A DNA stretch of 64,000 nt, from positions 88,710,327 to 88,774,326 of the forward strand of contig CM060892.1 of the NCBI GenBank assembly GCA_030762935.1, read 5' to 3'. Each line of letters begins with the position of its first letter. Position 1 is the first letter of the stretch. The translations under genes and the position numbers were made by a program. Below the pieces are notes generated by a model that was not told the origin of the DNA, did no database searches, and worked only from the letters and a program-made list of their open reading frames with translations. Positions 6,098 through 64,000 of this stretch are shown here, in pieces. This stretch comes from Hymenopus coronatus. Its lineage: Eukaryota; Arthropoda; Insecta; Mantodea; Hymenopodidae.

Positions 6098-6910
6098 AAA
6101 ATTAATAATTACTTTCTGAACACATACTATGCATATAGTGTGCAGAGACACTATTGTAATGCACCCAAAAATTCCATAACGAGATTTCACCGGAAATACT
6201 GTTTTGGGACCGCCTGAATAAGAAAAAAGCATTTTTAGAAAAAGTTCTGTGTGTACGTGCGTACGTGTGTGTGTCTGTGGACAGTATAGCTCAAAAACAA
6301 AAAGACCGTTTATATTTTTAGAACATTTTATTTTTCTCAAAAAAGGCTCCACTGATGTTGACTAAATTCCTCATGTATAAGATATTTTTATAACAAACTA
6401 ATTGTATATCTTGAATTTTCTGGGAATAGCCTTTGAAGAACTCTTCATTCTGGAGAACTTTTTATGTAACTGGCAAACCATAAGAGATATTTAAAAACTT
6501 ACTTCCCAAGAAATGTAGATCTCATTAAAACACCCAACTTATGTCATATAATTTTATGTAGATTTAACCGTTATAAAGATATTGCGGAATATTGATTTGA
6601 ATTTTAAGCAACTTAAACCTTTCTCAACCGGGAAGACATGTTCTTTATCCTTTCTCATGTGTTTATTTCCTCACAAGCAAGAGACTGAAATTTCAATTGT
6701 TTCACAGAGCAACCGGAATTAAAGGACGATACTATCGTTTTAGCCCGTGCATTATCTTATTTCACTTCTACTTACAAGGAAGCTAGTAATAAGACTAATT
6801 CTACTTATGTTTATCTTGATTAGCATGATGTAGATAAAATATTTATCTTTTGAATAAAAGGTTTGTCCTCCGGAGGACATCATGTGAATGAAACACATGA
6901 AATTTTTCCC
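6098..6910 (-). repeat. FamA copy
   Basis: Near full length in reverse orientation. It starts with the tail hairpin relic at 6108-6150, continues with 'cccaaaaattccataacgag' and 'atttcaccggaaata', the TG-rich microsatellite at 6240-6280, 'aattttctgggaatagcct', and ends with the head 'catgtgaatgaaacacatga'. It is older and more diverged than the copies at 54.6 or 56.8 kb. A 14-bp perfect palindrome (6865-6878) lies near its head end. Confidence 0.8.
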
Positions 6911-7055
6911 TTCTAATTACAAGCAACAAAGTACTAAGGGGAATTTCTGCTAATGTTTATCTCGATTATCATGAAGTAGACAGAAGAATAAGATTTATAT
7001 CAACAGTTTGTTACAGAGATATAGAGTAATTCATGTGAATGCAACACATCAGATT
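6911..7055 (-). repeat. FamA head-end fragment
   Basis: Only the last ~145 bp of the family (head end) is present: 'gctaatgtttatctcgatta', a damaged 'agagatatagag', then 'catgtgaatgcaacacatca'. It directly follows the previous FamA head end in the same orientation, giving a head-to-tail arrangement with the second unit truncated. Confidence 0.75.
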
Positions 7056-7156
7056 CTTTTTGTTTGATTTGTCGATTATCCTGCGTCTATGCTTTTTAGA
7101 AACATGCATTTCCTTTGCATTTTAAATTTAGATTGCAGAGTTGGTGAATAATGTTA

Positions 7157-8312
7157 TTACTTTCTCTACATGTACTTATATAATGTAACAGAGAAGATAT
7201 TGTATTCCCCCCTAAAAATTGATACTGAAACTCTACCCGAAATATACGGTTTGAGGCCCTCCGAATCCAATAAAAGAATGTTTAGAAATAGGTCAGTGTG
7301 TGTGTGCAGCATAGCTCTCTGTGGACAGCATAGCTCAACAACGAACATATAATTTAATAGCAAATTTAATATTTAAGTTTAGTATCCTCCAAGATTTTAA
7401 GGAAAATCTCCTCACCCGAAGCTACCCTTAACGTGCAACCTTTTATGAAAATTGTATTTTTCTCAAAAATTACTTTGACGATTTTGATTAAAATACTGCA
7501 TATTTATGAATTACATATCGATCTATAAATTTATTTATTATAAGTGATAGAATTATATAAACCTACTGAAATTTTTATTATTTTGATCTTTCTCTCTTTC
7601 TCGTGTAGGTTATTATACTTTGTATAAATAAAGGTGTATGTTACGTTAAATCGTTTTATTTTCTTAGTTTTAATATTTGTATTATCAATAAGTGTATTTA
7701 TTGACATAACAATATCAAACATTGGACTTCAACAATCACACGGGTACACAGACCGTACGTGCTTTTATAATACTCACTAAGAAGCAATATTAAAACAATA
7801 TATTAAGGATATATGCAAGGCAAATAAAACATATCTTGAAACTTCTGCTAATAGCCTCTGAAAGCCTATTCATTATAGATGAATTTTGCATAGTTTGTAA
7901 ATCGTGAGGGATAAACAAAAACTTACAGTTCAAAAAATGTAGATCTCATTAAAATACACGATATATGTCATAACTTTTTATGTAGTTAAGCGTTTTCGAC
8001 ATATTCCTTGTTATTGGTTTCAATTTTAAGCTACTTCTATTTTCTCAATCGGGAGGCTATCTTTCATTTCAGCTCTCTTTTGTGTTACTGCTGGCCTTGC
8101 AAAGCGAACATCGAATTTCATTTGCTTTACATAGCGATTGTCTTTTTAAAACATTAGGGCATAGCTTTAGTCTTGTGTAATATCTTATTTTCGTTCTATT
8201 TAGAACATTTCTGCTAACGTTTATCTCTAAATTACCATGTTGTACATAAAGGAATAATCTATCTACAAACTTTTGTTACAAGTAAGTCATATAAATGAAG
8301 CACATCATAAGT
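7157..8312 (-). repeat. FamA copy interrupted by a LINE-tail-bearing insertion
   Basis: FamA landmarks run from 'actttctctacatgtac' at 7159 to about 7505 ('gattttgattaaaatactgc') and resume near 7798 ('aaggcaaataaaacatatct'). They continue through 'cctgctg..gccttgcaaagc' type sequence to a head end near 8310. About 290 bp between 7506 and 7797 do not belong to FamA; their right part is a LINE 3' tail. Confidence 0.75.
7687..7796 (-). mobile_element. LINE 3'-terminal fragment
   Basis: The minus strand of this segment contains 'aaagcacgtacggtctgtg', 'acccgtgtga' and 'aataaatacacttatt', aligning with the last ~110 bp of the LINE copies ending at 35.57 kb and starting at 59.20 kb. It is more diverged than those two. 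It lies inside the FamA copy at 7157-8312, so the LINE insertion is younger than that FamA copy. The part of the insertion at 7506-7686 is unassigned. Confidence 0.7.
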
Positions 8313-8414: not shown

Positions 8415-8943
8415 AAAATCTGATGTGCTCCATTTACATGACTTTCTGTACATCTCTGTAACAAATTATTGTTAGTAAGCTTATTCTTCTGTATATTTAT
8501 AGCTAAAACATTTGTAGAAATGGTCTTACTACTTACTTTATAAGTATAAAGCAAATAAAGGGAATACACTAGGCTAAATTGAGAGTCAAATGTTTTAAAA
8601 TGTGGTTGCCGAGGGATTGCAATCAGTTTCTTTGCGTGGCCAGAAATTGACAAGTTGCCGTCTGAGTAAAGTTTAAGTATTTTAAAATTGAAATCAATAA
8701 CAAGGAATATCTTGAAAACGGCCAACTCCACGAAAAGATGTATAAAGCATAAATTGTGTTTTATCGTGATCTACATTTTTTGTGTAGTAAGTTTTTGTTT
8801 ATCTCTTATAGTTTACCAATTATACAAAATTCAATAAAGTTCATCCAGAATATATTTCCGGTAAAATCTCGATATCGAATTTTTGGGTGCAATACTATAC
8901 CTTCTCTATACATTATGTGCATTGTACGTATAGAGAAAGTAAA
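8415..8943 (+). repeat. FamA copy with internal deletion
   Basis: The head 'aatctgatgtgctccattta' starts at about 8417 and the sequence follows the family to 'attcatccagaat' near 8849. It then jumps directly to the tail region ('tatatttccggtaaaatctc', 'gaatttttgggtgcaatac'). The ~350-400 bp middle, including the microsatellite, is missing. It ends with the hairpin 'ttctctatac...gtatagagaaagt' at 8901-8940. Confidence 0.85.
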
Positions 8944-9879
8944 ACCGACAGAATAATTCTTAAAAATAATGTTCAATTGCCCACAGGTATGTTCTCTAAC
9001 TATATATTTATTGTAGCGTAAAATACTTATAAATAAGTGTATGTGTATTGCAAATCTGAGTGTGCAATATGATATAGATAATCAAGTTAAAATGTCATTG
9101 TTTAATTTACACTGAACATTAAGTTTGGGAATTCATTTCAAAGAGTAACATTCAACCAAATTAATTTTCTACGGTCGCTACAAAGGCACAAAGGGACAGA
9201 GGGAAACATTCTTGTTGGTGGTTGGTGGCAGGTGATGGACGATATCCTCTTTCACGATGGTGGTTACAGATCGCTGATATAATAACAATTCTGACCTCAT
9301 CACAGCTTCGTACACAGAGTAAACACTTAGAAAGGCGTTTGACCCGACCTGTAATTTTATCTTCTGACTTCCGTTGCTTCCCCTACTCACCTTCCTTCCA
9401 TCTCTCCACCCTTTAGTTTCCAGTCATCTTGCACAACGTCGAGACTGCCATAGTGCCTAATCTGATGTCTGAAGGTCGTGTTCAAATGATGCTGTGGCCA
9501 ACACTGAAGAGAAGGTTACCTCAAGACATCTTACTATCGGATATCGAAATTACAGAACAAGATGGATTCAACCTAATTTGTAATAATTATACCTTCTTTC
9601 TTCATGTTAATATTGCTAATAATACAGATTCACATTTCAACTCTTAGTTTACGAATTTGTTAATATTATTTTCATTTTAATTTTGAAATTAGTATTGCTA
9701 ATCTTCTTATATACTTCATCGTAGTCATCGTAATTTCTTTTAACCTCTAAAGCTTTCATACAATGTACACATGTTAATGGTGTCATGACTATATCAATGT
9801 TTTTAACTTGTTATTTTCTGTTAGGTTATTACAAATGAGTTGTATAGCTTCTAGCTGGTCGATCAAAATTAATAATTAA
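8944..9879. other. unassigned region with a possible exon-like block
   Basis: No repeat is recognised. A pyrimidine-rich tract ending in '..ctctccaccctttag' (about 9370-9417) precedes an open frame (about 9429-9644) of moderate GC. That resembles a splice acceptor followed by a terminal exon, but the translation matches nothing I recognise and this could be chance. Confidence 0.3.
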
Positions 9880-10285
9880 AAAACTTTTGTATATCTGGTC
9901 AATGATAAGAGGTAGAGAAAAACTTACTACCTACAGTAATAGTTTAGTGTTAATCGGCTCCGAAATATTCCTTGTTATTAGTTTCAGTTTTGAACTATTA
10001 AACTATTCTCAAATGGAAAGTTATTTTCACTTAATATTACTTTAATTTTACTCTTGGCGTTGCAAAGAGAATCGAATTTTAATTGCATCATATAATGAGC
10101 GGCCTTAAAATGATTTCACTATCACTTTAGTCTAGCGTTTCCTTATTTCCCTCCTACTTACAAGAGAGCGAGTAATGAGGAAATTTTGCTAATGCTTATC
10201 TCGATTTACTTGAAATAATTTTTAGGAATAGTTTGACTATAGAACCGTTAGCGGAAGTCATATGAATGGAGCAGATATTTTTCAT
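9880..10285 (-). repeat. FamA partial copy (head half)
   Basis: FamA sequence from 'ataagaggtagagaaaaact' through 'aatattccttgttattagtt', 'cactatcactttagtct', 'ttcctacttacaa' type blocks and 'gctaatgcttatctcgattt' to a worn head end near 10270. The tail half is absent. Confidence 0.7.
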
Positions 10286-11137: not shown

Positions 11138-11995
11138 AGGGTGATGTATTTCTTTCGTATGACCTTCTATTACTTTTTCTGCAAACAAACTTTGCTACAA
11201 GAATTCTTTTATCTGTATCATACTAATTCAGATAAAAATGAGATAAATCTCTCCTATTACTTACTTCCTTTTCAGCAAAAAGGAAAGAAGGGGATGCATT
11301 AAGTTAAAGCGGTAGGCAAATATTTCGAAAACTGATCGTTAAGTAAACAATTGAAGTTCTGTTCGCTTTCTAGCAGTAAAAAAAAGAGATGAAACGATAA
11401 GTGACTTCCTGTTTCATATAATTTACGTAGTTTGAATCTGAAACCAATAATAAGGAATACCTCAGAAATTGTCAACTATACAAAAATGTATCTAACATAA
11501 ATTGTGTGTTTTAACGAGATCTATAATTTTTGTGAAGTACGTTTTTGTCTATCTTTTCCGATTACACAAAATTTATTTCAGGATAAGGAGGTCTTCAAAG
11601 GCTATTCCTAGAAAATTGAAGATGCACATTTTATTTGTCATGTTTAATATAGATACGCCTTTTTAATCAATTTATGAGAAAAACGGCATTTTCAAAAATT
11701 ATTCCACACAAAAAGTGACGCATGAAAATCTTTGTGTCGCATCCTTGGAACATACTAAATTTAAATACCACATTTGGTATTTAAAGGTCTTTTTGTTTGA
11801 TTCTATGCTGTTCAGACGCACACACAGACGCGCTCGCGCGCGCGCACGTGGAAGTTTTTCTTAAAATGTTTTTTTTTTAACTCAGAGCACCTCAAAACAT
11901 ATTTTCGGTTAAATCTTAGTATCGAATTTTTGTATGGAATATAATATCTTCTCTGTACACTATGCATGTAATGTGGGAATAGAGAAAATAATAGA
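11138..11995 (+). repeat. FamA copy, diverged
   Basis: The head is poorly preserved (11138-11300), then 'gaaaccaataataaggaata', 'cttcaaaggctattcctaga' and 'gtcgcatccttggaacatac' follow the family order. The microsatellite slot at 11815-11850 is a CA/CG run. The tail ends with 'tcttctctgtacac...' near 11950-11990. Old copy. Confidence 0.75.
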
Positions 11996-14937: not shown

Positions 14938-15780
14938 ACTACTTTGTTCTTTTATAGTAAGTAGACAAGCTATTGTATTCCATCCAAAAATTCGATGCAG
15001 AGGCATCACCAACATATGTACATCTTTGAGGACCCAAGAATCCAAAAAAGGTTTTTGGGAAAAAGTCTGTGTGTGTGGGTTGTGTGTGTGTGTGTGTGTG
15101 GGTTGTGTGTGTGTGTGTGGAAGCATCACTCAAAAACCATGGTATTTAAGTTTAGCATTTTTTAACAAGACTATAAACAGATTTTCTGGAAAATCCCTAC
15201 CCTTTACATTCGAAATTTTATAAAAATCCTCCTAATTTCGATTTTCTTAAAAATAGCTCTAACGTTTGATTAAAATACCGCATATTAAAGATATTTAAAT
15301 GGCATTTAAAATGTATAACTTGAATTTGACTCTTAGTTGCTTTTATTCTGGATGTCTTTTACATACCCGTAAACCATAAGAGACAGCGAAAGCTTACTAT
15401 ACAAAAAATGCAGATCTCACTAAGCCATACAATTTAAGTCATATACACTCTACAATTTGAAAATATTCATTAATTTCTTAAACGGAAGGTCATCATTTGT
15501 TTCATATCTATTTTGTTTCATATCTATTTTGTTTTACCTCTGGCCATATAATGAGAAACGAGTTTCAACATAATCGCATAGTGACAGCTTTTAAATATTT
15601 CACTGTCACTTTAGCCTATGCATTCCCTTATTTCCCTTCTACTTATAAGAAATTGAATAATAAGACCATTTCTAGTAACTTTTATCTTAATTAGCATTAA
15701 TAGAAAAATAATCCGTTATAAGAATAGCTTATTTGCAGATCAGTTAAAGAAAGTCGCGTGAATTGAACACATCGGGTTTT
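14938..15780 (-). repeat. FamA copy
   Basis: Runs from the tail relic ('tattgtattccatccaaaaa', 14970-14990) through a long TG microsatellite (15067-15118), 'gctctaacgtttgattaaaa', 'gaccataagagacag' type sequence and 'cactgtcactttagcctatg' to the head end near 15765. The short frames in the microsatellite are low-complexity artefacts. Confidence 0.8.
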
Positions 15781-16831: not shown

Positions 16832-17696
16832 AAAAAAATCTTATGTGTTCCATTTATATGACTTTCTCTACATCTCGGATAAAATATTATTAAAAAGCTT
16901 ATGCTTTTATTTATTTCAAGCTAATCGAGAAAATATTTGCAGAAATAGTCTTACTACTTGCTTCCTTATAAGTAGAAGCGAAATAAGGGAGTATCATAGG
17001 TTACAGTGATAGTCAAAACATGGCTTCTATGTGACTGAAGTTCCGTTGTTTGTATGGACAGGAGTTGACAAATTCCTGTATAAGAAAAGCATAAGGCTTT
17101 CAAAGCTGAAACCAATAACAAGGAATATCTCAAAAAGATCAACTCCACGAAAAAAATGTATATGACACAATTGTGTGTTTTAACGTGCTCTACATGTTTT
17201 GTGTTGTAAGCTTTTGTCCAACTTTTACGGTTTAGCAATGATGCAAACTTTTGTAAAATTCATCCAGAATAAAGCAGTCTTCAGAGGCTATTCACAGAAA
17301 ATTCAAGATTGTTTGTCAGGTAAATCTCTTTAATATACGATATTTCAATCAAAATCGTTAGAGCCATTTTTGAGAAAATTAAAAATTTTAAAAAAAAGTT
17401 CCATGTAAAGGGTAGTTGGGTGTGGGGGGATTTTCTTGAAATTCTTTGTGTCCCATCCTTGGAAGCTACCAAACCTAATTACCAAGTTTGGTTTTTAACG
17501 GACATTTCGTTTTTGAGCCTTACTGCCCACATACACACACATACATACACGCACACGGACACGGACATTTTTCTAAAAATGCTTTTTTTGGATACAGGGA
17601 GTCTCAAAACATGCGAAATCGCGGTATCAAATTTTTGGTTGCATTACAATACCTTCTCTGCACACAATGTACATAGTATATATAGAGAAAGTAAAA
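16832..17696 (+). repeat. FamA copy, nearly complete
   Basis: Starts 'aatcttatgtgttccattta' after an A-run and ends with the tail hairpin 'ttctctgcacac...tatatagagaaagt' at 17653-17690 followed by 'aaaaa'. The microsatellite slot is at 17530-17570 (CA/CG-rich). Several overlapping open frames on both strands are frames of the repeat. Confidence 0.9.
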
Positions 17697-17749
17697 ACTG
17701 CTGCCCTCTACCACAATGATCTGCTATCCGGTGTCATTAATGTCAATTG

Positions 17750-20787: not shown

Positions 20788-21646
20788 AAAAAAGCTGATG
20801 TGTTCCATCACATGCTTTTCTCTAATCTCTGCAACAAATTATTGTTAAAAAATGTATGCTCCATTTAATTTATGCTAATCGATAAAAAAAAAATAGCAAA
20901 AATACTTTTATTACTTGCTTCCATGCAAGCGGAAGAGAAATAAGGGAGTGCCATAGGTTAAAGTGATAGTCAAAAGCTGGTCGCTTTGTGACTGAAGTTC
21001 ATTTGTTTGTATGGGCAGGACAACTGACAAATTCCCGTATGAGAAAAGTATAAGCTTTTTAAGGCTGAAACCAATAACAAAGAATGTCTTAAAAATGGTC
21101 CACTCCATGAATATATATATATATATATTTAAATTTTGAGTTTTAAGAGCTTTACATTTTCTACTAAGTAAGTTTTTGTCTATCTCTTTCGGTTTGCCAG
21201 TTATACAAAATTCCGTAAAATTCATCCACAATAAAGTAGTCTTCAGAGGTCGTTCCCAGAAAATTGGAGATATGCATTTTATTTTTCAGTGAATATATTT
21301 AATATACAATATTTTAGTCAAAATCTTAGTCATTTTTGAGAAAATCAAAATTTGCGAAAAATGTTCCATGTGGGGTGGGAGATTTTCTTGAAAATCTTTG
21401 TGTCGCATCCTTGGAAAATATTGAATTTAATCACCAAGTTTGGTATTTAACGGACTTTTCGCTTTTGAGCTATGCTCTCCACAGACACATACACACACAT
21501 ACGGACCTTTTTCCAAAAGTGTTTTTTTTAATTCATGGGGACCCAAAACATATATTTTTGGTGAAATCTTGGTATCGAATTTTTGGGTGCAATACAATAC
21601 CTTCTCTGTACAATATGTACATAACATGTGTAGAGAGAGTAAAAAT
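20788..21646 (+). repeat. FamA copy, nearly complete
   Basis: Head 'aagctgatgtgttccatcac' at 20793. The tail hairpin ends 'gtgtagagagagt' at 21630-21642. A short (TA)n run at 21112-21128 lies in the middle, and the CA-rich slot is at 21482-21505. The order and spacing of all family landmarks are intact. Confidence 0.9.
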
Positions 21647-22046: not shown

Positions 22047-22649
22047 AACAAAAAAAGCTGGTGCATTTTATTCAAATTACTTTGTTTACCTATTCTGTAA
22101 CAAACTATTTTTACAAAAGCTTATTCAAAAGCTCATTCTTCTAACTAGTTCATGCTGATCGAGATAAAAAGATTAGCAGAAATGGATTTGTTACTTAGTT
22201 CGTTCTATGTAGAAGGGAAAAAAAGGACTACACAAGGATAACGCATTATACAGTTTTTTAAAAGCCGGTATATGACACTTTTGAAAAAACGTTGTGCATT
22301 CCAAAGCTGAAACAAATAAAAGGAAATATTTCAGAAAGATTTTAACTCCCCAAAAATGATATATGACACAAATTATCTATTTTCGTTTATCTACTCTTAC
22401 AGTTCACAAGTTATCCAAACATCATTCAGAATGAAGAGGTCTTTGCAGACTATTCGTAGAAAATTCAACATAAATATTTAATTTGTCATACAATATAATA
22501 ACCGTATGGCACTTGAGTTAAAATAGTTTGAGCAATTTCTGAGAATAATAAATTAGTCAATGTAAGAGGTATTTTGAGGTGCAGTTTGTTCTTGAAAATT
22601 TTCGTGGCGCGTCCTTGAAGATCTTCAGAAATATATTCTGCTCAAGAGT

Positions 22650-23215
22650 ATCTTTATATATAATATGTTACCAATTTTTTATTTTCTCTAAAACTAAAAT
22701 AAACGATTTTGATGAAGTAATTTATTAAACATATTTAATATAATGTACATTTTTAATTTTATTAGAATAGTCTGTGGGACCACTTCAAAATGAATGACAC
22801 TGACATAGATAGGAAACCATAAGAGGTTGACTAAAACATAAAATGTATTTGGTTAAAACACATACCATACGGATTTCATATATTGTGTTTTTGGAGTTAA
22901 CGTTTTTTTTTAGATATCTCTGGTTATTGATTTTAAATTTTCCAATAAATTTCTCAAATGGGAATTTGTTATACACTTTTTCATCTTAGCTATCCAAAGG
23001 GAAGGGGGTTTCAATTTCTTCACATAGAGACCAGCTTTTAAAATATTTGACCTTTGCTTTACCCTAGTGCAGTTCTTCAGAAGAAACCAAGTAATAAGAT
23101 TATTTTTGCTAATCTTTATCTATTAGGATAAAGTAGAGAAGAATATTCTTTTGTAAGAACAGTTTGTTGCAGAATAGGTGGAGAAAATCCTGTAAATCGA
23201 ACACATCAGTTATTG
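22650..23215 (-). repeat. FamA partial copy nested in the previous one
   Basis: Reads 'aaacgattttgatgaagtaa', 'aaaccataagaggttgacta', 'tctcaaatgggaatttgtta', 'gctaatctttatctattagg' and ends at the head 'ctgtaaatcgaacacatca' at about 23211. The tail third is missing. Confidence 0.75.

Positions 23216-23216: not shown

Positions 23217-23300
<84 letters not shown>
23217..23300 (+). repeat. compound microsatellite (CT)n(CA)n
   Basis: About 48 bases of CT dinucleotides followed by about 36 bases of CA. It occupies the microsatellite slot of the FamA copy at 22047-23430. The translated Ser-Leu and Thr-His frames are artefacts of the repeat. Confidence 0.97.
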
Positions 23301-23302
<2 letters not shown>

Positions 23303-23430
23303 GCAAGCTACAAACGGTCATTCCTATAAAAATGCTTATGGGGGTTCAATGAATTTTAAAACTATTTTCAGTGTAATCTGGATATCGCATTTATGAGTGC
23401 AATGTAATACTTCTCCTATCCAGATTAGGT

Positions 23431-26774: not shown

Positions 26775-26775
26775 A

Positions 26776-37785: not shown

Positions 37786-37799
37786 TAATCAAATAATTT

Positions 37800-44062: not shown

Positions 44063-44084
44063 TTCTTCAAAACTTTCCATTTTT

Positions 44085-46261: not shown

Positions 46262-46562
46262 GGGCTACAGTTCAACACTGAAGCCAATAACAAGGAATTT
46301 CTCGGAAACGGTTACTTTAAAAATAAAAATGATAATAATAATAATAAAAATAATAATAATAAAAAATAGAAAATTAATAAATAAAAAATCTAATAAATAA
46401 CAAAATATTAAAAAATAATAAATAAAATCAGTATATGACAAATTGTGTATTTTAACGAGATTTACATTTCTCTACAATAACGTTTTGTCTATCTCTTACA
46501 GTTTATCCATTTACATAAAATACATCAAATTCACACAGACACATACGGACCTTTTTCTAAAT
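46262..46562 (+). repeat. FamA fragment with AT-rich expansion
   Basis: 'ctgaagccaataacaaggaa', 'ttctcggaaacggttac', then an AAT/AAAT-rich expansion (46320-46425), 'tatgacaaattgtgtatttt' and 'gtctatctcttacagtttat', ending in 'cacacagacacatacggacc'. Internally deleted and followed directly by another FamA head. Confidence 0.75.
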
Positions 46563-46563: not shown

Positions 46564-47568
46564 TCTAATGTGTTCCATTCACATGACTTTCTCTTCAACA
46601 AAGTATTCTTAATAACTAATTGAGATAAACACTAGCAGAAACGGTCTTATTGCTTAGTTTCTTATAAGTAGAAGGGAAATAAGGGAATATACTAGGCTAA
46701 ACCGTCAGGAACATTTTTAAAATATGCTTGCTATGTGTTTGAAATCCGTTTCTTTGCCTGGCCAGGATTTTACACGTTTCCGTGTGAGAAAATTTTAAGT
46801 ATTTCAAAAATGAATCCAATAACAAGGAATGTATTAAAATGGTCAATTTCACAAAAAGAAAAAAGGATATGATCTAAATTGCGTGATTGCAGGATATATA
46901 CAGTTTTTGTGTAGTAATGTTTTGTCTATTTCTTAATATTTATTAGATATGGAAAAATAAAAAAAAAGAATTAAGAGCTCTTCAGAGCCTATTCCCAGAA
47001 AATTCAAGACACCTATACATTTTATTTGTTATGCAAATATCCTAAATATAAGAGATTTTAATTTTTATTGGAAGATAATAATGGAACAAAGGAGAGATTT
47101 ATCGTGAGATTCCATGTGATCTCAAATTAATAAAATAGTTTAGTTGCATTTGGTTTAATTCAATGTTAGTATGTGTATTAAATCATTATTTTTTATGATT
47201 ACTTTGTGTTTTCAAAATGTTAGAGTCATTTTTGAGAACATCAACAATTTCAATTTTTTCCCATGTAAAGGGAAGTTGATTGTGGGGGACATTCTTGTAA
47301 ATCTTCGTGTCGCATCCTTGGAAGATACTGAGCTTAAAAACAAGTTTGGTATTAAAAGGACTTTTGGTGTTTTAGCTATACTGTCCACACAGACGGGCAG
47401 ATACACACACGCACACATACACTGGCATTTTTCTGAATTTTTTTTTTCTTCAGGAGTCTCAAAACATGTATTTCCGGAGAAATCTTTGTATCAAATTCTG
47501 GGCGTACATACAATACCTTCTCTATACACTATGCACATAGTACGTTCAGAGAGAGAGTAAAAATGTTA
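46564..47568 (+). repeat. FamA copy with about 140 bp internal insertion
   Basis: Head 'atctaatgtgttccattcac' at 46564. Tail hairpin 'ttctctatacac...cagagagagagt' to 47568. 47065-47205 does not belong to the family. CA slot at 47400-47423. Confidence 0.85.
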
Positions 47569-47574
47569 TTTTTA

Positions 47575-47685
47575 CAGGGGACTATAAAACGCGCATTTCC
47601 GGTGAAATTTCGGTATGGAAATTTTCTACGGAATATAATACCTTCTCTATCTACGTACCATGTACTAAAAAAGGATACGTTATCA
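47575..47685 (+). repeat. FamA tail-end fragment in tandem with the previous copy
   Basis: 'ggggactataaaacgcgcat', 'ttccggtgaaatttcggtat' and 'taataccttctctatcta'. It repeats the terminal ~110 bp in the same orientation right after the complete tail. Confidence 0.8.
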
Positions 47686-48974
47686 GTATTGAAACCCATT
47701 TAAGATACATCGTTTAATTCTGGCTCAAATATTGTGAAAGTAGAATTCACCAATACGAATTTAATAGCCAATAAGGAAAAATCTTTATAAAATTGAATTA
47801 AAAAATAAACCCCGCTGTAACTATATACATTGCTACGAGAGAGGTGAAAGGAGAGAGAGTGAGAGAGTATAAGCTAGAGAGACGTACCTCCACATTTATA
47901 GCAGCCATAACTGCAGGTTATGTCAGTCTTAAATGAATACATCTTAAAGGCTTAGCTGCTCTTCAGTGCTCAAGATACCGGATTATATAATTATTCTTCA
48001 TTATTTGATATAAGATTTTCCTTGTGTGAATAAAGTGGTGATCTCATATGCCATATGTAGGTAGAAAAGCAGTCTATACATGAGGTAGTACTGGCTGAGG
48101 CAAGCCTTATGTCTCGCCGTCTTTTTGCCTCTCCTCTATCTTGCTCTGTGAACCCAAACCACCCTCTTCATGGCACAAACTCTCGGGGCTACGACCCCTA
48201 CCTTCCCCCCCCCCCCATCCTACAGTAGCAGGGTTGGTTATCTCTGTGAATCCCCCAGTCTCAACCGACGCCCGCAGGCTAATGTGGTATCATAGTCAGT
48301 AATTAGCCGACTGAGACTACAAGATAATGTACTTCGCTGGCATAAATCTTTCCTTGCAAGCAGCAGCCTTCTACCACTACGCGAAATGGCTGAAACGAAC
48401 TCTCTTCCTCCTCCTCTCTCTCCTAGAAATACCTACTGTCTCCATCTCTTTCCCTCTCCTTCATTTAATCCGATCTTAACTCTTCTTCTCTTTCTCTCCA
48501 ATCTTAATCACCCTAAAGGAAAGAAGGAAAGAGAAAAAGGATTGCTTCGGGGTGAATATGGGTTGGTTGTGAAGGGAAGATGAGGAGGCTGTGAAGTAAA
48601 AGTGGAAGAAGGAGAAATGAAATATATTTTTAAAATGAAGGGGCCCAGAAACAAGGAGATACGGAGGAGTATATTTTCAGCTGTGCTATAGATATACCGG
48701 AGAAATGAGGGGATATGGATTGTATGCAATATATAAGCAAACGTTACAGATGCAGCACGATAATAAACGATTTTCCTTTGAGGCTGATCTGCAGTTTCAC
48801 TTGCAGCCAATGTCAATTCCTAATTTAATAATAGCTATTTACATATTACGTATAGACACGACAATGTTAATTTTTCCAAAAGAATCGCAAAAAATATAGA
48901 AAAGTGAGAAGCTGTTCTACAAAATTCGAGCAATACAACCTAATTACTTTTGCTAAAACGTACGTACCATCTAC
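47686..48974. other. unassigned region with pyrimidine/purine-rich low complexity
   Basis: A GA-rich run lies at 47838-47882, a C-run at 48206-48218, and a CT-rich stretch at 48400-48500 faces purine-rich sequence to 48650. Several frames on both strands are composition artefacts. Confidence 0.35.
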
Positions 48975-50693
48975 GTAATAGATAGAGAAGGTATTGTATT
49001 CCTCCCAAAATTATCGTACCAAGTTTTCATAGTAAATACCCGTTTTGAGGACCCCTAGTATATAAAATCTGATGTGTTACACTCACATGCCTTTCTCTAG
49101 CTGTTCTACAAACTTCTTACAAAAATTATTCTTCTTTCTGCATCTTGCTAATTGAAGTACTCATTACCACAATGTTCTTATTACTTAGTTCCTTATAAGT
49201 AGGAAAAAATAAGGGAATACTCTAGACTAAAGCCATAGTCAAGTGTTTTAAAAGCTGTCGTTATGCGGTTGTCATTACACATCCTTTCTTTTCTTGGCCA
49301 GGAGTAGAGCAAAAGAAAACCGCACACTCCCGTCTGAGAAAAGTGTAAGTACTTCACAACTGAAACTAATAACACTGAATACCTCGAAAACTGTAAGCTC
49401 CACGAGTAAAATGTATATGACATAACTTGTGTATTTTAGCAAGACCTACATTTTTTGTATAGTAAGTTTTTGTCTATCTCTTACGATTTACTAGTTATGC
49501 CAAATTAAGCAAAATTCATCCAGAATAAACAGGTCTTTAGAAGCTATTCCCAGAAAATTCAAGATATACATTTTATTTTTCAGCTAAATATCTTTAATAT
49601 ACGATATTTTAATCAAAATCGTTAGAGCCATTTTTAAGAAAATCAAAATTTTCGGTAAAAATTCAATGTAAAGAGTAGTTTGGGGTGGGGGAATTTTTCT
49701 CAAAATCTTCGTGTCGCATCCCTGGAACATACTAAACTTAAATGCCAAGTTTGGTGCTTTACCGACTTTTCGTTTCTGAGTTGTCGTGTTCATAGACACA
49801 CGGACAAACGGACACACACACGGACCTTTTTGTGAAAATGATTTTTTTGGATACAGGGGACCCTAAAGCATATATTTCCGGTGAAATCTCGGTATCGAAT
49901 TTTTGGGTGGAATACAATACTTCTCTATCCCTATGGACATTGTACATACGGGGCTAGAGAAAGTAAAAAGGTTCAAGTGTGTGTGTTTTGTCTATTTGTC
50001 GATCCCTATGTGTGTATGTGTGTGTGTTAATGTGTGTAAAAAGCATAACTCAAAAACGAAAAGTGTGTTAAATACTAAGGTTATTATTTACGTTTAGTTT
50101 TTCCTTACGTATCAACACCAAGATTTTCAAGAATTCTTCATTAGAAACTATCCTTTATATACAAAAACTTGGAACATTTGGATTAACCTACGTATATTGA
50201 AAATCTTTACCTGACCAACAAAATGAGAATATCCTCTGAAATTTTCATTTAGTTTTACAATACTGGTAAACTGCAAGAAATGAACAAAAAATTAGTTTAC
50301 AAAATATATAGATTTCGTCAAAACACAGAATTTATGTATATTTTTGCTGTGAAGCTAACCATTTCAGAGATATTCCATGTAATTGATTTCAGTTTTAAAA
50401 TACGCATGTTTTTCTTGAACTTGTCATTTGTGTTTCTTTTGTTTTACTCCTGGCCAAACAAAGAAAACTAATTTCAATTTTAGTTACATAGCGACAATTT
50501 TTAAAAGTTTAGACTAATGATTTAGCCTAATATATTCCTTTACTTTCCTTCTATGTAAAGCAACTAATTAATAAGACCATTCCTGCTAACGTTTATCTCA
50601 ATTAGCATGAAATAAATAGAATAGCAATAAGAATATGATAATAAACAATATATTAAGAATAGGTTGCAGGTGAATGGAACGCATCAGAATACG
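48975..50693 (-). repeat. FamA copy split by another FamA copy
   Basis: The left piece 48975-49065 covers the tail hairpin relic to 'ttgaggacccctagtatata' plus an A-run. The right piece resumes at about 49970 with 'aggttcaagtgtgtgtgttt', the next part of the family, and runs to the head 'gcaggtgaatggaacgcatc' at 50690. The interruption is the opposite-strand copy 49066-49969. Together the pieces form one nearly complete element. Confidence 0.82.
49066..49969 (+). repeat. FamA copy nested inside another FamA copy, well preserved
   Basis: Head 'aatctgatgtgttacactca' immediately after 'tataaa'. Tail hairpin 'ttctctatcc...ggggctagagaaagt' ending near 49965, followed by an A-run and the resumed host copy. 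The CA slot is at 49795-49822. Confidence 0.92.
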
Positions 50694-51445
50694 TTTACTT
50701 TCTCTAGCACGTAAGTGCAATGAACATAGTAGTTAGACAAGTATTGCATTACATTTGTTGTGTATTTGTGTATGTCTGCGTGCCAGTGACCAGAAAATTC
50801 AAAAACGAAAAGTCGAATAAGAACTAAACTTGGTGTTGAAGTTAATTATATTAAGGATGAAACACGAAACACCAAATTACCCATTACATGGAACATTTTG
50901 AAATTATCAATTTTCTGAACAAATTCTCTAACGATTTATAAGTATTATTGTAACACATATTAAAGATATTTACTTGATAAATAGGATGCATATCTATCTT
51001 AATTTTTTTTTGGAATAACCTCTGCAACCCTTTTCTAATTCTAGAGGACCTTTGCATAAGAATTAAGCCTAAGAGTTTACGTTATGCAGCGGTTGTGTCC
51101 TTCAGATCTCGTTAAAACATATAATTTAGCTTAGAAAGATTTTTAAGAAGTTTACTGTTTTCAAGAAATGTCTTGTTATTGGTTGTAACATACTTATACT
51201 TTTTAAAAAGGTAAATACATTATTCTTTTTTCTTTTGTTTTGCTATTGACCATGTAAAAAGAACCAAATTTTAATGTCATCGCTTTTAAAATTTGGCTAT
51301 TTCCTTATTTCCCTTCTATTTACAAGCAACTAAGTAATACTTTAATTTCTTCTAATGCTTATCTCAATTAACATGAAGTAGATGCAAGCACACTTTGTTC
51401 GCAGATCAGGTATAGAAAGTCATGTGAATGGAACTCATCTGAGTT
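50694..51445 (-). repeat. FamA copy in tandem with the preceding reverse copy
   Basis: 'gtttactttctctagcacgt' starts within a few bases of the previous head end. Ends 'catgtgaatggaactcatct'. The microsatellite slot is reduced to 'gtgtatttgtgtatgtctgc'. Confidence 0.85.
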
Positions 51446-52004: not shown

Positions 52005-52815
52005 AAAATCTTGTATGTTCCATTCAAATGACTTTCTTTGCCTGTGTCGCAAACAATTTATTCTTTTTTCTAAATCATGCTAATTAACATGGAGCATTAG
52101 CCCAAATTGTATTATTACTTGCTTCTTTGTAAGTAGAAGGGAAATACGGTGAAACAGTAGGCTAAATCGATAGTCAAATCTTTTAAAGCTGTCGTTATGC
52201 GACGCAAATGAAATTCGGTTTGCAACATGGCCTGGAATAAAACAAAAGAAATGTGAATTGAAAGATGAGTTGTCGTTTGACACAAATTTAAGTAGTTTAA
52301 CATTGAAAACATAACAAAGAATATCTGGGAAACGGTTAACTCTTTAATAATAATAATAATGTATTGTGTGTTTTAAGAGATTTATATATTTATGTATTAA
52401 ATTTTTTGTCTATCTTTTACAATTTACCAGTTATATTAAAGTTATCCAGAATAAGAAGGTCTTCAGTATATTCCAAAATATTTAAGCCAATTGTCTCATT
52501 TGTCATGAAAATACATATCTTAAGCATATTGTATTTTAATAAAAATTTAAGAAGCATTTTTGAGAAAATTAAAATTTTCGAAAAATCTTCACTGTTAAGG
52601 GTAGTTTGGGGTAGGAGTACTAGAGTTTAAATTTAGCCGACTTTTCGATTTAAGTTGTATATTATTCACATATATTGGCAAAGAAACACGGAGCTTTTTC
52701 TAAAAATGCTTTTTTTATTCAGGAGACACTAAAACGTGCATTTCCAATGAAGTATTATTATAGATTTTTTGGGGTGGAATGCATTACCTTTTTACCTATA
52801 TGTTATGCAGGTAGT
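52005..52815 (+). repeat. FamA copy, diverged
   Basis: Head 'aatcttgtatgttccattca' at 52008, 'tacggtgaaacagtaggct', an (AAT)n patch at 52346-52360, and tail 'ggggtggaatgcattacctt' ending 'gtataaaagt' at 52810. The microsatellite is lost. Confidence 0.82.
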
Positions 52816-54490: not shown

Positions 54491-54606
54491 CACACGTTGA
54501 ATTACTAACTTATTTACCAAATCCTAATTAGTCTATTTGTTTTGGCAAGTTTAAGAAATGACAGTATACGGTGTTAACACTAATTGACTAAAGCAATACC
54601 ATCTTT

Positions 54607-55455
54607 TTACTTTCTCTGCACGTATTATGTACATAGTGTATACAGAAGTTAATGCACTCCACCAAAAAATTCGATACCGAGATTTCACCGGAAATATACG
54701 TCTTAGGGTCCCCTGTACCCAAAAAAAGTATTTTCAGAAAAAGGTCCGTGTGTAGTGTGTTTTTGTGACCGTGTGTCTTTGAACACTATAACTCAAAAAC
54801 GAAAAGTCGGTAAAATACCGAACTTTATATTTAAGGTTAGTATATTCCAGGGATGACACAAAGATTTTGACAAAAATCACCCCACCACAAACCACCCTTT
54901 ACATGGAACGTTTTTCGAAAAAATTGATTTTCTTGAAAATGATTCTAACGATTTTGATTAAAATATCGTATATTAAAGATATTCACCTGACAAATAAAAT
55001 GTATATTTTGAATTTTCTGAGAATAGCCTTTGAAGACCACTTTATTCTGAGTGAATTTTACGGAATTTTGCATAACTTCTAAACTGTAAGAAATGGACAA
55101 ACACTTACAACACAAAAATGTAGAGCACATTAAAACACGGAATTTTTGTTGTGTACACTTTTTTGTGGAGTTGATCCTTTTTTAGATAATCCTTGTTTTT
55201 GGTTTCAGCTTCCAAAAACTTAACTTTTCTCATACAGGAAAATTGTCAGTTACATAGCAACCAGCTTTTGATTATCATTTTAACCTATGGTACTCCCTTA
55301 TTTCTCTTCTACTTACAAGGAAACAAGTAATAAGATTATTGCTGCTATTTTTTTTTTTCGAATAGCATGAAATAATTAAAAGCATAAGCTTTTTAACAAT
55401 AATTTGTTGCAGAGATGTAGAGAAAGTCATGTGAATGGAACACATCAGATTTTTT
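54607..55455 (-). repeat. FamA copy, well preserved
   Basis: Starts 'ttttactttctctgcacgta' and ends 'catgtgaatggaacacatca'. TG slot at 54745-54780. The blocks 'gcttccaaaaacttaacttt' and 'cagttacatagcaaccagct' are close to the copy at 56795, implying one recent subfamily. Confidence 0.93.
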
Positions 55456-56794: not shown

Positions 56795-57635
56795 CTATTT
56801 TTACTTTCTCTACATGTACTATGTAGATAGTGTATAGAGAATTCACTCCACCCAAAAATTCGATACCGAGATTTCACCGGAAATATATGTTTTAGGGTCC
56901 CCTGTATCCAAAAAAAGCATTTTCACAAAAAGCTCCGTGTGTATGTGTGCGTGTGTGTCCGTGTGTCTGTGAACATGAAAAAGTCGGTGAAATACCAAAC
57001 TTGGTATTTAAGTTTAGTATCTTCCAGGGATACGACACGAAGGTTTTGAGAAAAATCCCCCCACCGCAAACTACCCTTAACATGAAACTTTTTTGAAAAT
57101 TATGATTTTCTAAAAATGGCTCTAACGATTACGGTTAAAATACCGTATATTAAAGATGTTTACCTGAAAAAGAAAATGTATATCTTTAATTTTCTGGGAA
57201 TAGCCTCTGAAGGCAACTTTATTCTGGACGAATTTTACGGAATTTTGCATAACTGCTAAACCGCAAGAAATGGAAAGATGTAGAGATTAAAGCACACAAT
57301 TTATGTTATATGCATTTTTTCATGGAGTTGATCGTTTTTTTGGATATTCCTGTTTTTGGTTTCAGCTTTAAAAATTATACTTTTGTCACAAGGACTTTGT
57401 CAACTCCTGTCCATACAACCAAAGGAACTTCAGTCACATAGCAACCAGCTTTTGACTATCACTTTAACCTATGTTACTCTATTATTTCGCTTCTACTTAC
57501 AAGGAAAAAAGTACTAAAACTATTTCTGCTATTTTTTTCGATTAGCATTAAGTAAATAGAACAATAAGCTTTTTAGCAATAATTTGTTGCGGAGATGTAG
57601 AGAAAGTCATGTGAATGGAACATATCAGACTTTTT
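56795..57635 (-). repeat. FamA copy, well preserved
   Basis: Starts 'ttttactttctctacatgta' with hairpin partner 'gtgtatagagaa', and ends 'catgtgaatggaacatatca'. 'cagtcacatagcaaccagct' and 'tgtcaactcctgtccatac' are intact. One of the best references for a family consensus. Confidence 0.94.
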
Positions 57636-58332: not shown

Positions 58333-59062
58333 ATTATGATGTGTGCCATTTACATGACTTTCTCTACATCTCTGCTACAAATTATTGTTCAGAAAGTTAT
58401 TCTTCGATAGTCAAAAGCTGGTTGCTATGTGATTGAAGTTTATTTGTTTGTATGGACGGAGCTGACAAATTCCCGTATAAGAAAGTATAAGTATTTTAAA
58501 GTTGAAACCAATAACAAGGAGTATCTAAAAATGATCAATTCCACGAAAAAAAGTATATAACATAGATTGTGTGTTTTAACGTGATCTACATTCTTTGTGT
58601 ATTACGTTTTTGTCTATCTCTTATGGTTTACCGGTTACGCAAAATCAGCAAAATTCATTCAGAGTAAAGAAGTCTTCAGAGGCTATTCTCAGAAAATTCA
58701 AGATATACATTTTATTTGCCATATAAATATATTTAATATAGCTGCGGTATTTTAATCAAAATCGCTAGAGGCATTTTTGAGAAAATCAACATTTTTGCTT
58801 GTAAAGAGTAGTTTGGGGATTGATTTTTCTCAAAATTTTCATGAAGTATCCCTATAAGATAGTAAACTTAAATACCAAGTTTGGTACTTTACTGAGTTTT
58901 CGTGTTCATAGACACACGGACCTGTTTCCAAAAATGTTTTTTTTTGGGATGCATGGGGCCCTAAAACGAGTATTTCGGGTGAAATTTTGGTATCAAATTT
59001 TTGGGTGGAATGCAATACCTTCTCTGTACACTTGTACACAGTAGGTGTAGAGAAAGTAAAAA
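58333..59062 (+). repeat. FamA copy
   Basis: Head 'attatgatgtgtgccattta' at 58334, tail hairpin 'ttctctgtacac...ggtgtagagaaagt' to 59058. The CA slot is short (58910-58922), and ~90 bp after the head are deleted. Confidence 0.92.
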
Positions 59063-59194
59063 TTAAATCGGCCAAGCAGAAAAAGCCAAGAACTCGATTG
59101 TTACCGAATGTTCCTCGCCAACCATGGAGGATATTATCCACCATCACCGCTGCCGTCGCCACATTCAGCTTCACGACTTTTGTTTTTCATGAAT

Positions 59195-59646
59195 GAATGA
59201 ATGAATAAGTGTATTTATTAATATAGCAATATCATACATAGAATTTCAACAGTCGCACGGGTCCACAGACCGTACGTGCTTTTGTAATACACATTACAAG
59301 CAATATTAAAACAACAACCACAACAAAGAATTAAAAGAGTAAACACGAAAATAAAAAGACAAAGGAAATACACAGTCAAAAGCAATATTAGACAACAATA
59401 AAAATTAAGAGTGAATCCGAAAATAAAGATACAAAAATATTCAAATATATCAATTTAAATTTACAGCACAGAGTACACCTTCATAAATGTACCCTCTTAT
59501 AATAGATAATTACACTTAAAAGACATATATACACATAATATATACAACCCTAGCACAACAGTGACCTAAGTATGATATAATATACATGTATGTAGAACAT
59601 TGTAGTCACTTTTGTTTAGTTGATCTTATCCCCCCCTTCTCTATTG
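59195..59646 (-). mobile_element. young LINE 3' end, nearly identical to the 35-kb copy
   Basis: Read on the minus strand it matches 35122-35575 with only a handful of differences by eye, including 'gaagg', G-run, 'ataagatcaactaaacaaaa', the T-rich UTR and the (CATT)n tail. It is 5'-truncated at 59646, right after the 'ccaatagagaag' that precedes the stop codon region. Truncation, tail and low divergence are as expected for a recent retrotransposition. Confidence 0.92.
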
Positions 59647-59894
59647 GATCGGTTCCGTCCTCTTGAGGAGCGAACTGATCGTGCCAGCAAAGCACGAAGT
59701 GTCTTGGACTTCTTTGCCCCCTAGGGTCGATAGTTTAAAAGCTTGTAGTGAAGTAGTTCTTCGTGCATCATTAAAACACCATCGCCACTTAACGGAGGTT
59801 TCTTGGTCAATTGAATTTCTAGTTCGCGAATTGGCCAAAATGCGCAGATGTTAACGAGAAATCATCTCATCATACATAGATGGAACCATAGAAT
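59647..59894. other. unassigned sequence
   Basis: Open frames on both strands (about 59641-59854) overlap. Neither is recognised. Confidence 0.3.
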
Positions 59895-61255: not shown

Positions 61256-61825
61256 AGAACGTCTAGAGCAAACCCAAAAGCGTATCCACCCGATGCTATA
61301 CCATTGGTAGTTATACATATAGGTGGAGCAACCAATTCCCAATCAACTTAATCAACCAATGAACTGGTTTAGAAACCATGAAGTACCCTGAATACCGTAA
61401 ATGATTCACGTTATCTTAAGAACCATGACTATTACTACAGCAGCAGCGCCTATTGACCCAAATAGATATTCCTCAGAGATAACGCAAGCGCTTTGAAAAT
61501 TGCCGAACCTAAGTTAAAACCTCTGTGACAGCATACTTTTTTTCTCCCCCATCTATGTTGTTTCTTCTATCATGTTTTTTACTTCACATTCTTAATTTAT
61601 ACTAATACAGAGTTTCCGCTATATTAGTTATAATTTGAGTATTAGATAATATACAGATATATATTATGTATAATAGTCAAAGTTTACAGCTACTGTTGAT
61701 AAGTATCATCCCGTGGTCGTAATTGTGTTTCTCTCTGTGCTGGTCAAATGTTTGTACTTGACTCCATCAGTCGCCGAAAGAGATCTTCAATCACGACTAT
61801 AACGACGCATTCATTCATACTTAAG
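61256..61825. other. unassigned sequence, may include the worn left end of a Tc1-like element
   Basis: No gene is seen. I could not find a terminal inverted repeat matching the right side of the transposase remnant. Confidence 0.3.
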
Positions 61826-62815
61826 AAAAGTCAGAGGCCGTTGATAAACGTTCTGCTGTTCTCAACCTGGTTTCACAGGGTTATACGGCCACCAGAGTGG
61901 GTAGCATTTGTGATGTTCCACAGTCCACTGCGAGGAATTTGGCAAAGTTATATTGTAAAGGGCGACAAGTTGCTGCAAGGAAGAGCACTGGTGGCTCGCG
62001 TGTATCTACCGAGAAAGAAGACAGGTCTCTCATGGCAGAGGTCAAAAGAGATCCGTTTCTGACGGCCATAGACGTGCGGCAGCAAAGGAAGTGCCAACTG
62101 AATCCCACAAAATTGACAGGTTCACATTTACAGTAGAGTACGAGAACTTCGATTGAAGCGAAGTAATTTTCTACGATGAAGCAAGTTCTAATGCAGATGT
62201 CAATTTGACTGTGTTTTTTCAAGAGACGATATACTATGGTGTTCATTTTTGCTATTTAATTACTTCAATTTGGGTTATCTCTATTTTGATTTGACATCAT
62301 TATTTTGTCATACTGCTGTTTCTCCTGCAGAATTTCCTTGATAAATGATGCAATAGCTGCAAGGAGTGGTCGAATGAGGGTTACTGCTTGGGCGTGGTGC
62401 AGGTATGCTGGAACATGATCATGGAAAGCTGAAAAGGAAACCTACTCTGAAATTCTAGAACATGTTCTGCTTCCATCTGGCCAAGAGCGTTATCCTGAAG
62501 ATATTATTAAATTCCAACAGGAGAATCATTCAGTCCACAAGTCGGTCAAAGTTCAAAAGTGGTTTTCGGAGCACACGAATATCTTAGAGCAGATGCCGTG
62601 TCCTACAAAGTCAGCAGATCTCAACCCAATTGAACATGTTTGGACGAAAGTAAGCAGAGGCTTTCTCAGGTCTCAGATTTAATAATGCTACACAACTCTG
62701 GTGTGCCATGATAGACACTTGGGATTCACTACAGAAGACGTTACTTATTTTCAAACGCTAGTGGAGTCCATGCCCCGAAAATATGGGGCAGTGATAGTAA
62801 ATAATTAGGCAACCA
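61826..62815 (+). pseudogene. broken Tc1/mariner-superfamily transposase
   Basis: The N-terminal helix-turn-helix region reads 'AVLNLVSQGYTATRVGSICD' and 'VPQSTARNLAK' from about 61855, followed by 'STEKEDRSLMAEVKRDPFLT', the paired-like DNA-binding part of Tc1/Tc3-type transposases. The centre is degenerate. The C-terminal catalytic part is in one frame from about 62431: 'YSEILEHVLLPSGQERYPED', 'FQQENHSVHKSVKVQKWF' and 'SADLNPIEHVW', then after a stop and frameshift 'YFQTLVESMPRKYGAVI'. The final acidic residue is present (Glu codon 62632). The usual 'Q(D)N..(V)H' aspartate is Glu (codon 62521), and the first catalytic Asp is not identifiable. Inactive relic. Confidence 0.88.
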
Positions 62816-63337
62816 CACAAAGTATTAGGATTTGTTTTCTCTTGTTTCATTAGCCTTTTGTTGCATTTAAAAGCAACCGGATATCAGGTTGCGGTGTTTT
62901 TCTTTGTTTTCTAGTTGATTTATATAACTTAATATACATCGGTTGTAAACAGAACTAATATGAACTAAAATACAAAATAATAATCAAAAAAAATCTATGC
63001 GATTTACTGGCCTTGAACCTACGCTAGGTAGCACACTGAGCTTCAAACGGAGCACGTTCGCCTGAGAATACTCTAGGTACTTTATTCCCTGATTATAAAG
63101 AACTGTTGCGGACAGCTCAACCGTCAAGGTTTGGTTTATTTTTTAGTGTTTTTGTACATGTTAGAGGAAAACAATTATTTTGATTGTTCCCTGGTTGCTA
63201 TTTTATGTTATAAAGCAATAAACTACGTTTTAACTTTCTGTATAAAAGCATGTTTTGTAGCTTAGCGCACGTGCACGTGTAAATCCAGCTTGTGTAGCTT
63301 CGTGTGCTTCCGTGAGGCCGAAGCGATACCTTGAAAG
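62816..63337. other. unassigned sequence with a weak tRNA-like patch
   Basis: On the minus strand about 63070-63005 reads 'gaagctcagtgtgctaccta' and 'gtaggttcaaggcc', faintly A- and B-box-like. Not enough to call a SINE. Confidence 0.3.
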
Positions 63338-64000
63338 GTTACATGATTGTACATAGCTAAGGAAGTATTCCACCCATCAATTCGATGGCAAGGTTCCCTG
63401 AAACCAATAAACATTTTTAGAAAAAGATCAAGTGTGTGTGTTTGTGCGTGTGTGTGTGAGTGTGTGTGTATCTGTGAACACGATAACTCAAAATGAGAAG
63501 CCTGTTAAATACAAACTTGATGTTTAAGTTTAGTATATTCTACGACACGAAGACTTCCAAAAAAAATCCAAAAAAAATCCTCTCACCCCAAAGTACCTTT
63601 TACATGAAAAGGTTTAGAAAGATATGATTTTCTCAAAAAATGCTGATGATTTTGATTAAAATGCCTTATATCTAGAGTTTTCTGAAAATAACCTCTGAAG
63701 ATGCCTTCATTCTGCATGCCTTTAAACTGTAAGAAATAGACCAATCTACTACGCAAAGAATATAGATCTCGATAAAACACACAATTTATCTTCGTGGAGT
63801 ATGGCATTACTTTGTTACTCATTATTGTTTTCATTTTACAGTATTTAAATCTTTCCATACGGGAATTTTTCATTCCAGTTTGTTTTGTTTTTCTCCTGAT
63901 CATTCAGATAGAACCGAGTTTCAATCACATAGCGACAGCTCTTTAAAAGATTTGACTATCACTTTAGCCAATTGTATTTCGTTAGTTTCCTTCTTCTTAT
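63338..64000 (-). repeat. FamA copy, runs off the right edge
   Basis: From the worn tail ('ggaagtattccacccatcaa', 'ttcgatggcaaggttccctg') through a TG microsatellite (63432-63470), 'cacgataactcaaaatgaga', 'ctgaaaataacctctgaaga' and 'cactttagccaattgtattt'. The head lies beyond the window. Confidence 0.88.

Follow-up and report, generated by a model that had tools for sequence, protein, structure and literature searches.

The window analysed here, a stretch of 64,000 nucleotides from contig CM060892.1 of Hymenopus coronatus (assembly GCA_030762935.1, positions 88,710,327 to 88,774,326 of the forward strand), contains many copies of a single non-coding repeat of about 0.85 kb, which we classify, with a probability of roughly 0.86, as a HINE, a non-autonomous element moved by Helentrons. 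The original prediction, made from the letters of the window, had counted about 40 copies or pieces and put their share at roughly two fifths. A profile built from eight aligned copies (878 positions) was searched against the window with nhmmer and gave 56 matches, which could be chained into 41 copies or pieces, 16 of them two-ended. Together they cover 23,266 of the 64,000 bp (36%), so that both estimates were about right. By self-BLAST alone, 24,934 bp of the window have any second copy. No match was obtained in a 2-mer block shuffle of the window, and the reversed window gave a single borderline match (E 2.4e-4) in the microsatellite part of the model. No long open frame is present in the family copies examined.

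The consensus starts with T5, followed by the 5' subterminal inverted repeat (subTIR) ACTTTCTCTACA, 18 nt and a partner repeat, TATAGAGAAGGT. From about position 140 there is a (GT)n/GTCC microsatellite, and the element ends in the 3' subTIR TGTAGAGAAAGT, a C, the palindrome ATGTG-AATGGAA-CACAT, CAGA and a T-run. These parts are laid out as follows in the copy that serves as reference:

25984-26776, minus strand: reference copy with both ends; element sense is the minus strand
26772-26776, minus strand: 5' T5 (AAAAA on the plus strand)
26760-26771, minus strand: 5' subTIR ACTTTCTCTACA
26732-26743, minus strand: partner repeat TATAGAGAAGGT of the 5' subTIR, 16 nt away (18 in the consensus)
26600-26638, minus strand: GT/GTCC microsatellite
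26005-26016, minus strand: 3' subTIR TGTAGAGAAAGT
25987-26003, minus strand: 3' stem-loop ATGTG-AATGGAA-CACAT, followed by CATA (consensus CAGA) and a T-run

The subTIRs are inverse at 12 of 12 positions in the model consensus. The perfect inverse motifs that had been noted for the reference copy (there given as 25983-26774) are also present, as exact inverse 12-mers at 26005-26016 and 26760-26771. The partner repeat is complementary to the 5' subTIR at 10 of 12 positions in the consensus, and the energy of the resulting 5' hairpin is better than that of all 200 shuffles (z -2.7). In an alignment of 20 of the 28 three-prime ends, 88% of the cells at the 3' stem-loop are paired. With the model, 50 five-prime and 54 three-prime ends were extracted from the window and the sampled loci, and by eye most of them are in HINE order.

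The landmarks of the original prediction are thus real, but its orientation has to be reversed. The supposed stem-loop at the tail corresponds to the 5' subTIR and its partner repeat, and the supposed head contains the 3' palindrome (ATGTG-N7-CACAT). The reversal follows from the HINE/DINE-1 layout and from the direction of the Helentron leader and genes, which run in the 5' to 3' direction of the element in this genome, and not from the strength of the hairpins. The microsatellite had been placed at a fixed distance from the former tail, and in 13 of 17 ends the nearest GTGTG run lies 139-147 bp away from it; in the remaining four the run lies at 125 (one), at 169 (one) or is missing (two). 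The exact motifs are rarer than had been implied, since the copies have diverged: TCTGATGTGTTCC occurs once in the window (55437, minus) and ACTTTCTCTACA/TGTAGAGAAAGT nine times. The Kimura distance to the majority sequence has a median of 0.172 (range 0.078-0.329) among 32 two-ended copies, which comprise the 16 from the window and others from 12 further stretches, part of which were picked by the exact 3' motif.

The first family copy in the window begins at 6109. The copies and pieces besides the reference copy, given as chained family-profile matches with the strand in element sense, are:

6109-6900, plus: copy, both ends
6905-7053, plus: 3' piece
7157-8308, plus: copy, both ends (gapped chain)
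8419-8944, minus: copy with internal deletion, both ends
9884-10276, plus: 3' half
11142-11987, minus: copy, both ends
14939-15775, plus: near full copy
16840-17697, minus: copy, both ends
20795-21645, minus: copy, both ends
22059-22620, minus: 3' part
22617-23209, plus: 3' part
23272-23415, minus: piece
24219-25029, minus: copy, both ends (5' TCTAGC)
27068-27500, plus: 5' part
28008-28474, minus: pieces, chained
28209-28321, plus: piece
29001-29611, plus: pieces, chained
29658-30365, plus: pieces, chained
30847-31654, minus: copy, both ends
32529-33240, plus: near full copy; one T5 joins its 3' end to 5' end-like sequence
33262-33530, plus: 5' part
35981-36136, plus: piece
36261-36505, plus: 5' piece
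36489-37324, plus: pieces, chained
37798-38406, plus: 3' part
43110-43220, minus: 5' piece
43299-44058, plus: copy, both ends
44087-44910, plus: copy, both ends (TCTAGC/GCTAGA)
46271-46520, minus: pieces, chained
46565-47562, minus: copy, both ends, nested in another copy
47558-47664, minus: remainder of the host copy around 46565-47562
48960-49056, plus: piece of the host copy around 49068-49962
49068-49962, minus: copy, both ends (TCTAGC/GCTAGA), nested in another copy
50002-50688, plus: rest of the host copy around 49068-49962
50761-51440, plus: 3' three quarters of a copy
52013-52812, minus: near full copy
54605-55449, plus: copy, both ends
56798-57629, plus: copy, both ends
58336-59062, minus: copy, both ends
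63348-63999, plus: copy running off the window

Head-to-tail tandems had been predicted and do occur, for example at 33241 and 44061-44087. However, with 10 same-strand and 7 opposite-strand pairs among neighbouring copies less than 150 bp apart, they are not the rule.

The sites of insertion were compared for the 21 copies with well-kept ends (11 of the 32 two-ended copies were dropped). The T-run at the 5' end is exactly T5 in 14 of them, T4 in five and T2 in two, while the strictly counted T-run at the 3' end spans 0 to 9. A direct repeat that includes a letter other than T is seen in only one copy, and the other 20 show no duplication beyond Ts. The mean flank repeat length is 3.52, against 3.40 for shuffled pairing, and 173 of 500 shuffles reach the observed value. 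This confirms the description of the flanks as A-runs (T-runs in element sense) without a long target duplication. Four of the 32 copies are inserted into another copy of the family, and joining the flanks gives sequence that aligns continuously with the family model (89% over 254 bp, 74% over 250, 70% over 218 and 80% over 122), thereby providing empty sites. These differ by changes in the number of Ts and ordinary divergence, with a seeming loss of two letters before the run, by eye, at one locus (L008).

The two ends of a copy vary in concert. A 5' TCTAGC is paired with a 3' GCTAGA at 49068 and 44910 in the window and, by eye, at 6351 of locus L039. Exceptions are the copy at 24219, which does not fit, and that at 963 of L008, where GCTAGA goes with TCTACA. 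The last two letters of the subTIRs match between the two ends of the same copy in 11 of 21 cases, against 5.6 after shuffling (3/2000), a comparison uncorrected for relatedness.

Known HINEs and DINE-1 were compared by the published descriptions of their layout. The layout described for HINE/DINE-1 elements consists of a 5' subTIR with a nearby repeat, a microsatellite on the left side, a 3' subTIR followed by a palindrome, and T-rich sites that are not duplicated (PMC4067079, PMC7492417). The 5' subTIR with its partner repeat, the microsatellite, the 3' subTIR with the palindrome and the T-rich sites of the mantis family correspond to this layout. HINE-Mo from a mite and HINE-Cq from Culex resemble the family in having 12-15 bp subTIRs near the 5' end, a short 3' palindrome and T-rich sites with variable Ts and no duplication, and in being non-coding with microsatellites in some copies (PMC4067079). 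Unlike in the mite HINE, the subTIR of the family is not itself palindromic, and there is a separate partner repeat, as in DINE-1 (PMC4067079). DINE-1/INE-1 from Drosophila also shares the subTIR (13 bp, 12 in the family), the microsatellite, a putative 3' stem-loop and the TT sites, and its inverted repeat is located 3-22 bp from the 5' subTIR, compared with 18 in the family consensus (PMC4067079). Similarly, Cg_HINE from the Pacific oyster is described with a 5' subTIR of 11-12 bp and a complementary repeat, a GTCY-type microsatellite in the left part, a 3' subTIR followed by a palindrome, and oligo-T sites (PMC7492417). Central satellite-like tandem repeats are a regular feature of Cg_HINE (PMC7492417), whereas none were seen in the aligned family copies. 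At one sampled locus (L043:2289-2710), the 5' end of the family is repeated in tandem, head to tail, in steps of 109-178 bp, possibly the start of a satellite.

Decayed Helentron Rep and helicase genes exist in the same genome. The Rep profile PF14214 gave 112 matches, and the best 30 loci mostly represent canonical Helitrons, with the motif G-L-(P/L)-H in 18, G-M-P-H in one and no motif recovered in 11. These canonical loci (L009-L038) fall into groups of related DNA with about 85-92% identity among the 60 longest pairs listed, and most of their Rep matches contain stop codons. Among 20 weaker matches that were fetched, 12 have the Helentron form of motif 2, with G-S before (P)HxH, one has G-L and seven have neither; a stricter motif pattern recovers 11 of the 12. 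When one G-S Rep was used as query, 51 matches were found at 35 places, with stop codons in 32 of the 51. A match to PIF1 helicase lies 1.5-1.8 kb downstream of Rep at no fewer than nine of the 35 places, as judged from coordinates compared by eye. The best-preserved Helentrons are those at C11:16910663, C16:118478648 and C21:262414440.

One Helentron copy also contains a match to DUF6570 (E 3e-16). Further upstream of DUF6570 and Rep lies an open reading frame (ORF) similar to Herpes_teg_N, which has a broken frame and scores below the Pfam cut-off (E 2.1e-4, 21.4 versus 25 bits). The relatives named among 24 matches to the DUF6570 part are from the arthropods Eretmocerus, Trichogramma, Araneus, Nezara and Trichomalopsis and from one sea cucumber. 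Helentrons with a tegument-type (VTD) deubiquitinase carrying the Herpes_teg_N domain have been reported (PMC9741609), and the mantis Helentron resembles them in its Herpes_teg_N-like ORF, although this match is below the cut-off. At the Helentron loci on the contigs designated C13 (L095) and C21 (L097), the deubiquitinase-like ORF is followed by a lysine/glutamate-rich repeat region and then DUF6570, and by eye the C21 copy of this ORF contains NTQCTSNSVMALC and YWLxDPH. A further locus on C13 (L096, C13:136951936-136956935) contains, by eye, a Penelope-like reverse transcriptase that starts about where the Helentron homology stops, and probably represents an insertion into the Helentron.

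Sequence next to the Helentron leader suggests a link between the family and the Helentrons. On C13 (L095) and C11 (L099), the leader directly follows a family-like block that terminates in the region of the 3' subTIR and palindrome. This junction recurs at C1:208788-213067; there the block forms a complete 727-bp element that includes a 5' end, and the leader is shortened and then followed by a family 3' end. Part of the block is retained on C16 (L098), and on C21 (L097) the leader is preceded by another segment of the family (model 667-476). The C11 block is 80% identical to the C1 block over 310 bp (260 bits), while other sampled copies outside Helentrons reach at most 105 bits. Since block and junction are shared between different contigs (C13, C11 and C1), the block belongs to the copied unit, and the C1 locus is best explained as having arisen by deletion from a Helentron with family ends. 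The autonomous partner with the same ends that the original prediction called for is thus represented by shared 5'-side sequence and one deletion derivative, but not by a complete autonomous copy. We consider the link between the family and the Helentrons to be strong, but not final.

The HINE classification has to be weighed against other ways of moving the family. The original prediction had proposed a Helentron/HINE (DINE-1-like) class, and the published layout, the type of ends and the presence of a Helentron-type Rep in the same genome all agree with it. The genome's canonical Helitrons (Rep G-L-P-H) could have moved the family instead, and their loci do provide the strongest Rep matches. 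However, the family lacks the canonical 5' TC and 3' CTRR ends and A|T sites and has 5' TTTTTAC, 3' CAGA and T-run sites, and the family model matches 3 of the 30 canonical loci, while it is the Helentron leaders that are preceded by a family-like block, which makes canonical Helitrons a very unlikely source. A miniature inverted-repeat transposable element (MITE) would be cut and pasted by a DDE transposase through its inverted repeats, with TTTTT as the target duplication. The inverted 12-mers near both ends are in line with this, and the exact T5 at most 5' ends with T-runs opposite can be read as a T5 duplication. There is also a decayed Tc1/mariner-like gene in the window at 61825-62679 (+), pieces of which match HTH_23 (E 2e-4, below cut-off) and DDE_3 (E 8e-9). 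Yet MITEs have inverted repeats at their very ends and a fixed duplication, whereas the extreme ends of the family (TTTTTACTTTC... and ...CAGATTTT) are not inverted copies, its inverted repeats are subterminal and asymmetric (adjoining the T-run at one end and 22 nt in at the other), and the 3' T-runs range from none to nine. A T5 duplication alone is compatible with the data, but no DDE gene with family ends was encountered, though no search by ends was made, and we regard a MITE as highly improbable. The A-runs and short length could also suggest a short interspersed nuclear element (SINE) or other retroelement, a possibility that is close to negligible given that there are T-runs at either end and no duplicated target letters other than Ts, and that the window has no tRNA (ARAGORN, bacterial settings) and no Rfam match at gathering score.

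More weight must be given to the possibility that the family is a HINE, but that the block before the Helentron leader was inserted there as a hitch-hiker, the true partner being a Helentron that was not seen or has been lost. One insertion of this kind is likely at the high density of the family, the block represents a diverged subfamily, and the segment on C21 is a different one. On the other hand, the junction recurs on separate contigs (C13, C11 and the C1 derivative) and so lies inside the copied unit, and the C11 block resembles the C1 block much more than it does any other sampled copy outside Helentrons; we find hitch-hiking conceivable but on balance doubtful. Several further observations count against the HINE classification or the proposed partner. 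The 3' stem-loop (5 pairs, -2.3 kcal/mol) is unremarkable, as 68 of 200 shuffles reach its energy, and pair counts reveal no more covariation in either end structure than in shuffles, in alignments of 24 of 31 five-prime and 20 of 28 three-prime ends, with odd lengths left out and relatedness uncorrected. The 3' subTIR and palindrome are located 22 and 4 nt from the 3' end (T-run uncounted), compared with 38-60 and 8-35 nt described for mite HINEs (PMC4067079). Because the sites are T-rich, a T5 that belongs to the element and a T5 target duplication are indistinguishable, and loci L001-L008 were picked by the exact 3' motif, which favours well-kept 3' ends. No complete autonomous Helentron, 3' end of a gene-bearing copy or C-terminal endonuclease was seen in the sequence read at these loci. 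The family is so common that chance neighbourhood is likely at single loci, and the block beside the genes belongs to a diverged subfamily (Kimura 0.28 on C1), so that the young copies do not descend from it directly.

If the family is a HINE, the Helentron Rep/helicase would act on the subTIRs, with a nick in the flanking T-run, after which one strand would be peeled off and copied until copying halts at the 3' signal. The product would then be joined into another T-run, with only Ts added or left. The proteins used may be those of the particular Helentron described above. The 3' hairpin is functional in a canonical Helitron, as reported in the Helraiser study (PMC4778049), and by analogy it may be functional in the family elements too. 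A bolder proposal, which we think unlikely, is that the autonomous Helentron starts with a complete HINE, including a 3' subTIR and palindrome, ahead of the leader and genes, and that rolling-circle copying from the 5' end mostly stops there and releases the short HINE. The gene-bearing Helentron would then be made only by read-through of the internal 3' signal. If true, the short family would be the main product of the Helentron rather than a chance deletion derivative. Such stopping would explain why more than 100,000 marked short copies stand against gene remnants that number in the tens, and about a third of the 3.1-Gb genome could have been built in this way.

The abundance of the family was estimated from the whole assembly (3,126,739,099 bases, 384 contigs). 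The 13-base end motif TCTGATGTGTTCC occurs 138,139 times in the 3.13-Gb genome, compared with 119 times for the reversed control, and the 35-base 5' end 14,153 times (control 0). The family occupies 61, 50, 7, 10.5 and 17% of five arbitrary 10-kb stretches at round coordinates, a mean of 29% with a wide spread (n=5). These stretches and the window contain three exact 13-mers, while 5.0 are expected from the genome-wide density, so the sampled stretches are not obviously rich in the family. If the five are representative, this one rolling-circle family makes up about 0.9 Gb of the genome. By comparison, all Helitrons together are reported to account for 17-22% of morabine grasshopper assemblies (PMC7754599) and 7-20% of gomphocerine repeatomes (PMC7486953). 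The family appears as a new and unusually abundant HINE, with relics of a likely partner in the same genome. With well over a hundred thousand marked copies, a HINE-type parasite seems to have built a large share of this genome. The 29-base 5' motif gave no matches in the genome_contigs and viral_contigs collections, from which records near the own genome may be excluded.

There are 1,947 exact head-to-tail junctions in the genome (3' end, at most 14 nt, 5' end; control 0), a count restricted to this orientation. Exactly TTTTT separates CAGA from ACTTTC in 8 of the 15 junctions listed. Read-through during rolling-circle copying could produce these junctions, and so could oriented insertion of an element into the T-run that precedes an older copy. 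Together with the nested sites and the Helentron relics, they provide a natural series for testing where Helentrons start and stop and how they choose T-runs.

Other repeats are also present in the window. Positions 1-1415 consist of about three head-to-tail units of about 470 bp each that are 68-69% alike and where the family model has no match. The segments at 35116-35576 and 59189-59647 form an inverted pair of 463 bp with 96% identity, well above the other repeat pairs listed. An open frame of 147 codons at 34698-35138 (+) resembles, by eye, the end of a retrotransposon protein and has no Pfam match, and the segment 34883-35143 is 77% like 1580-1840. Among the contigs listed, one is 546 Mb long and fourteen are 61-187 Mb; the former may be a very large sex chromosome or a fusion.

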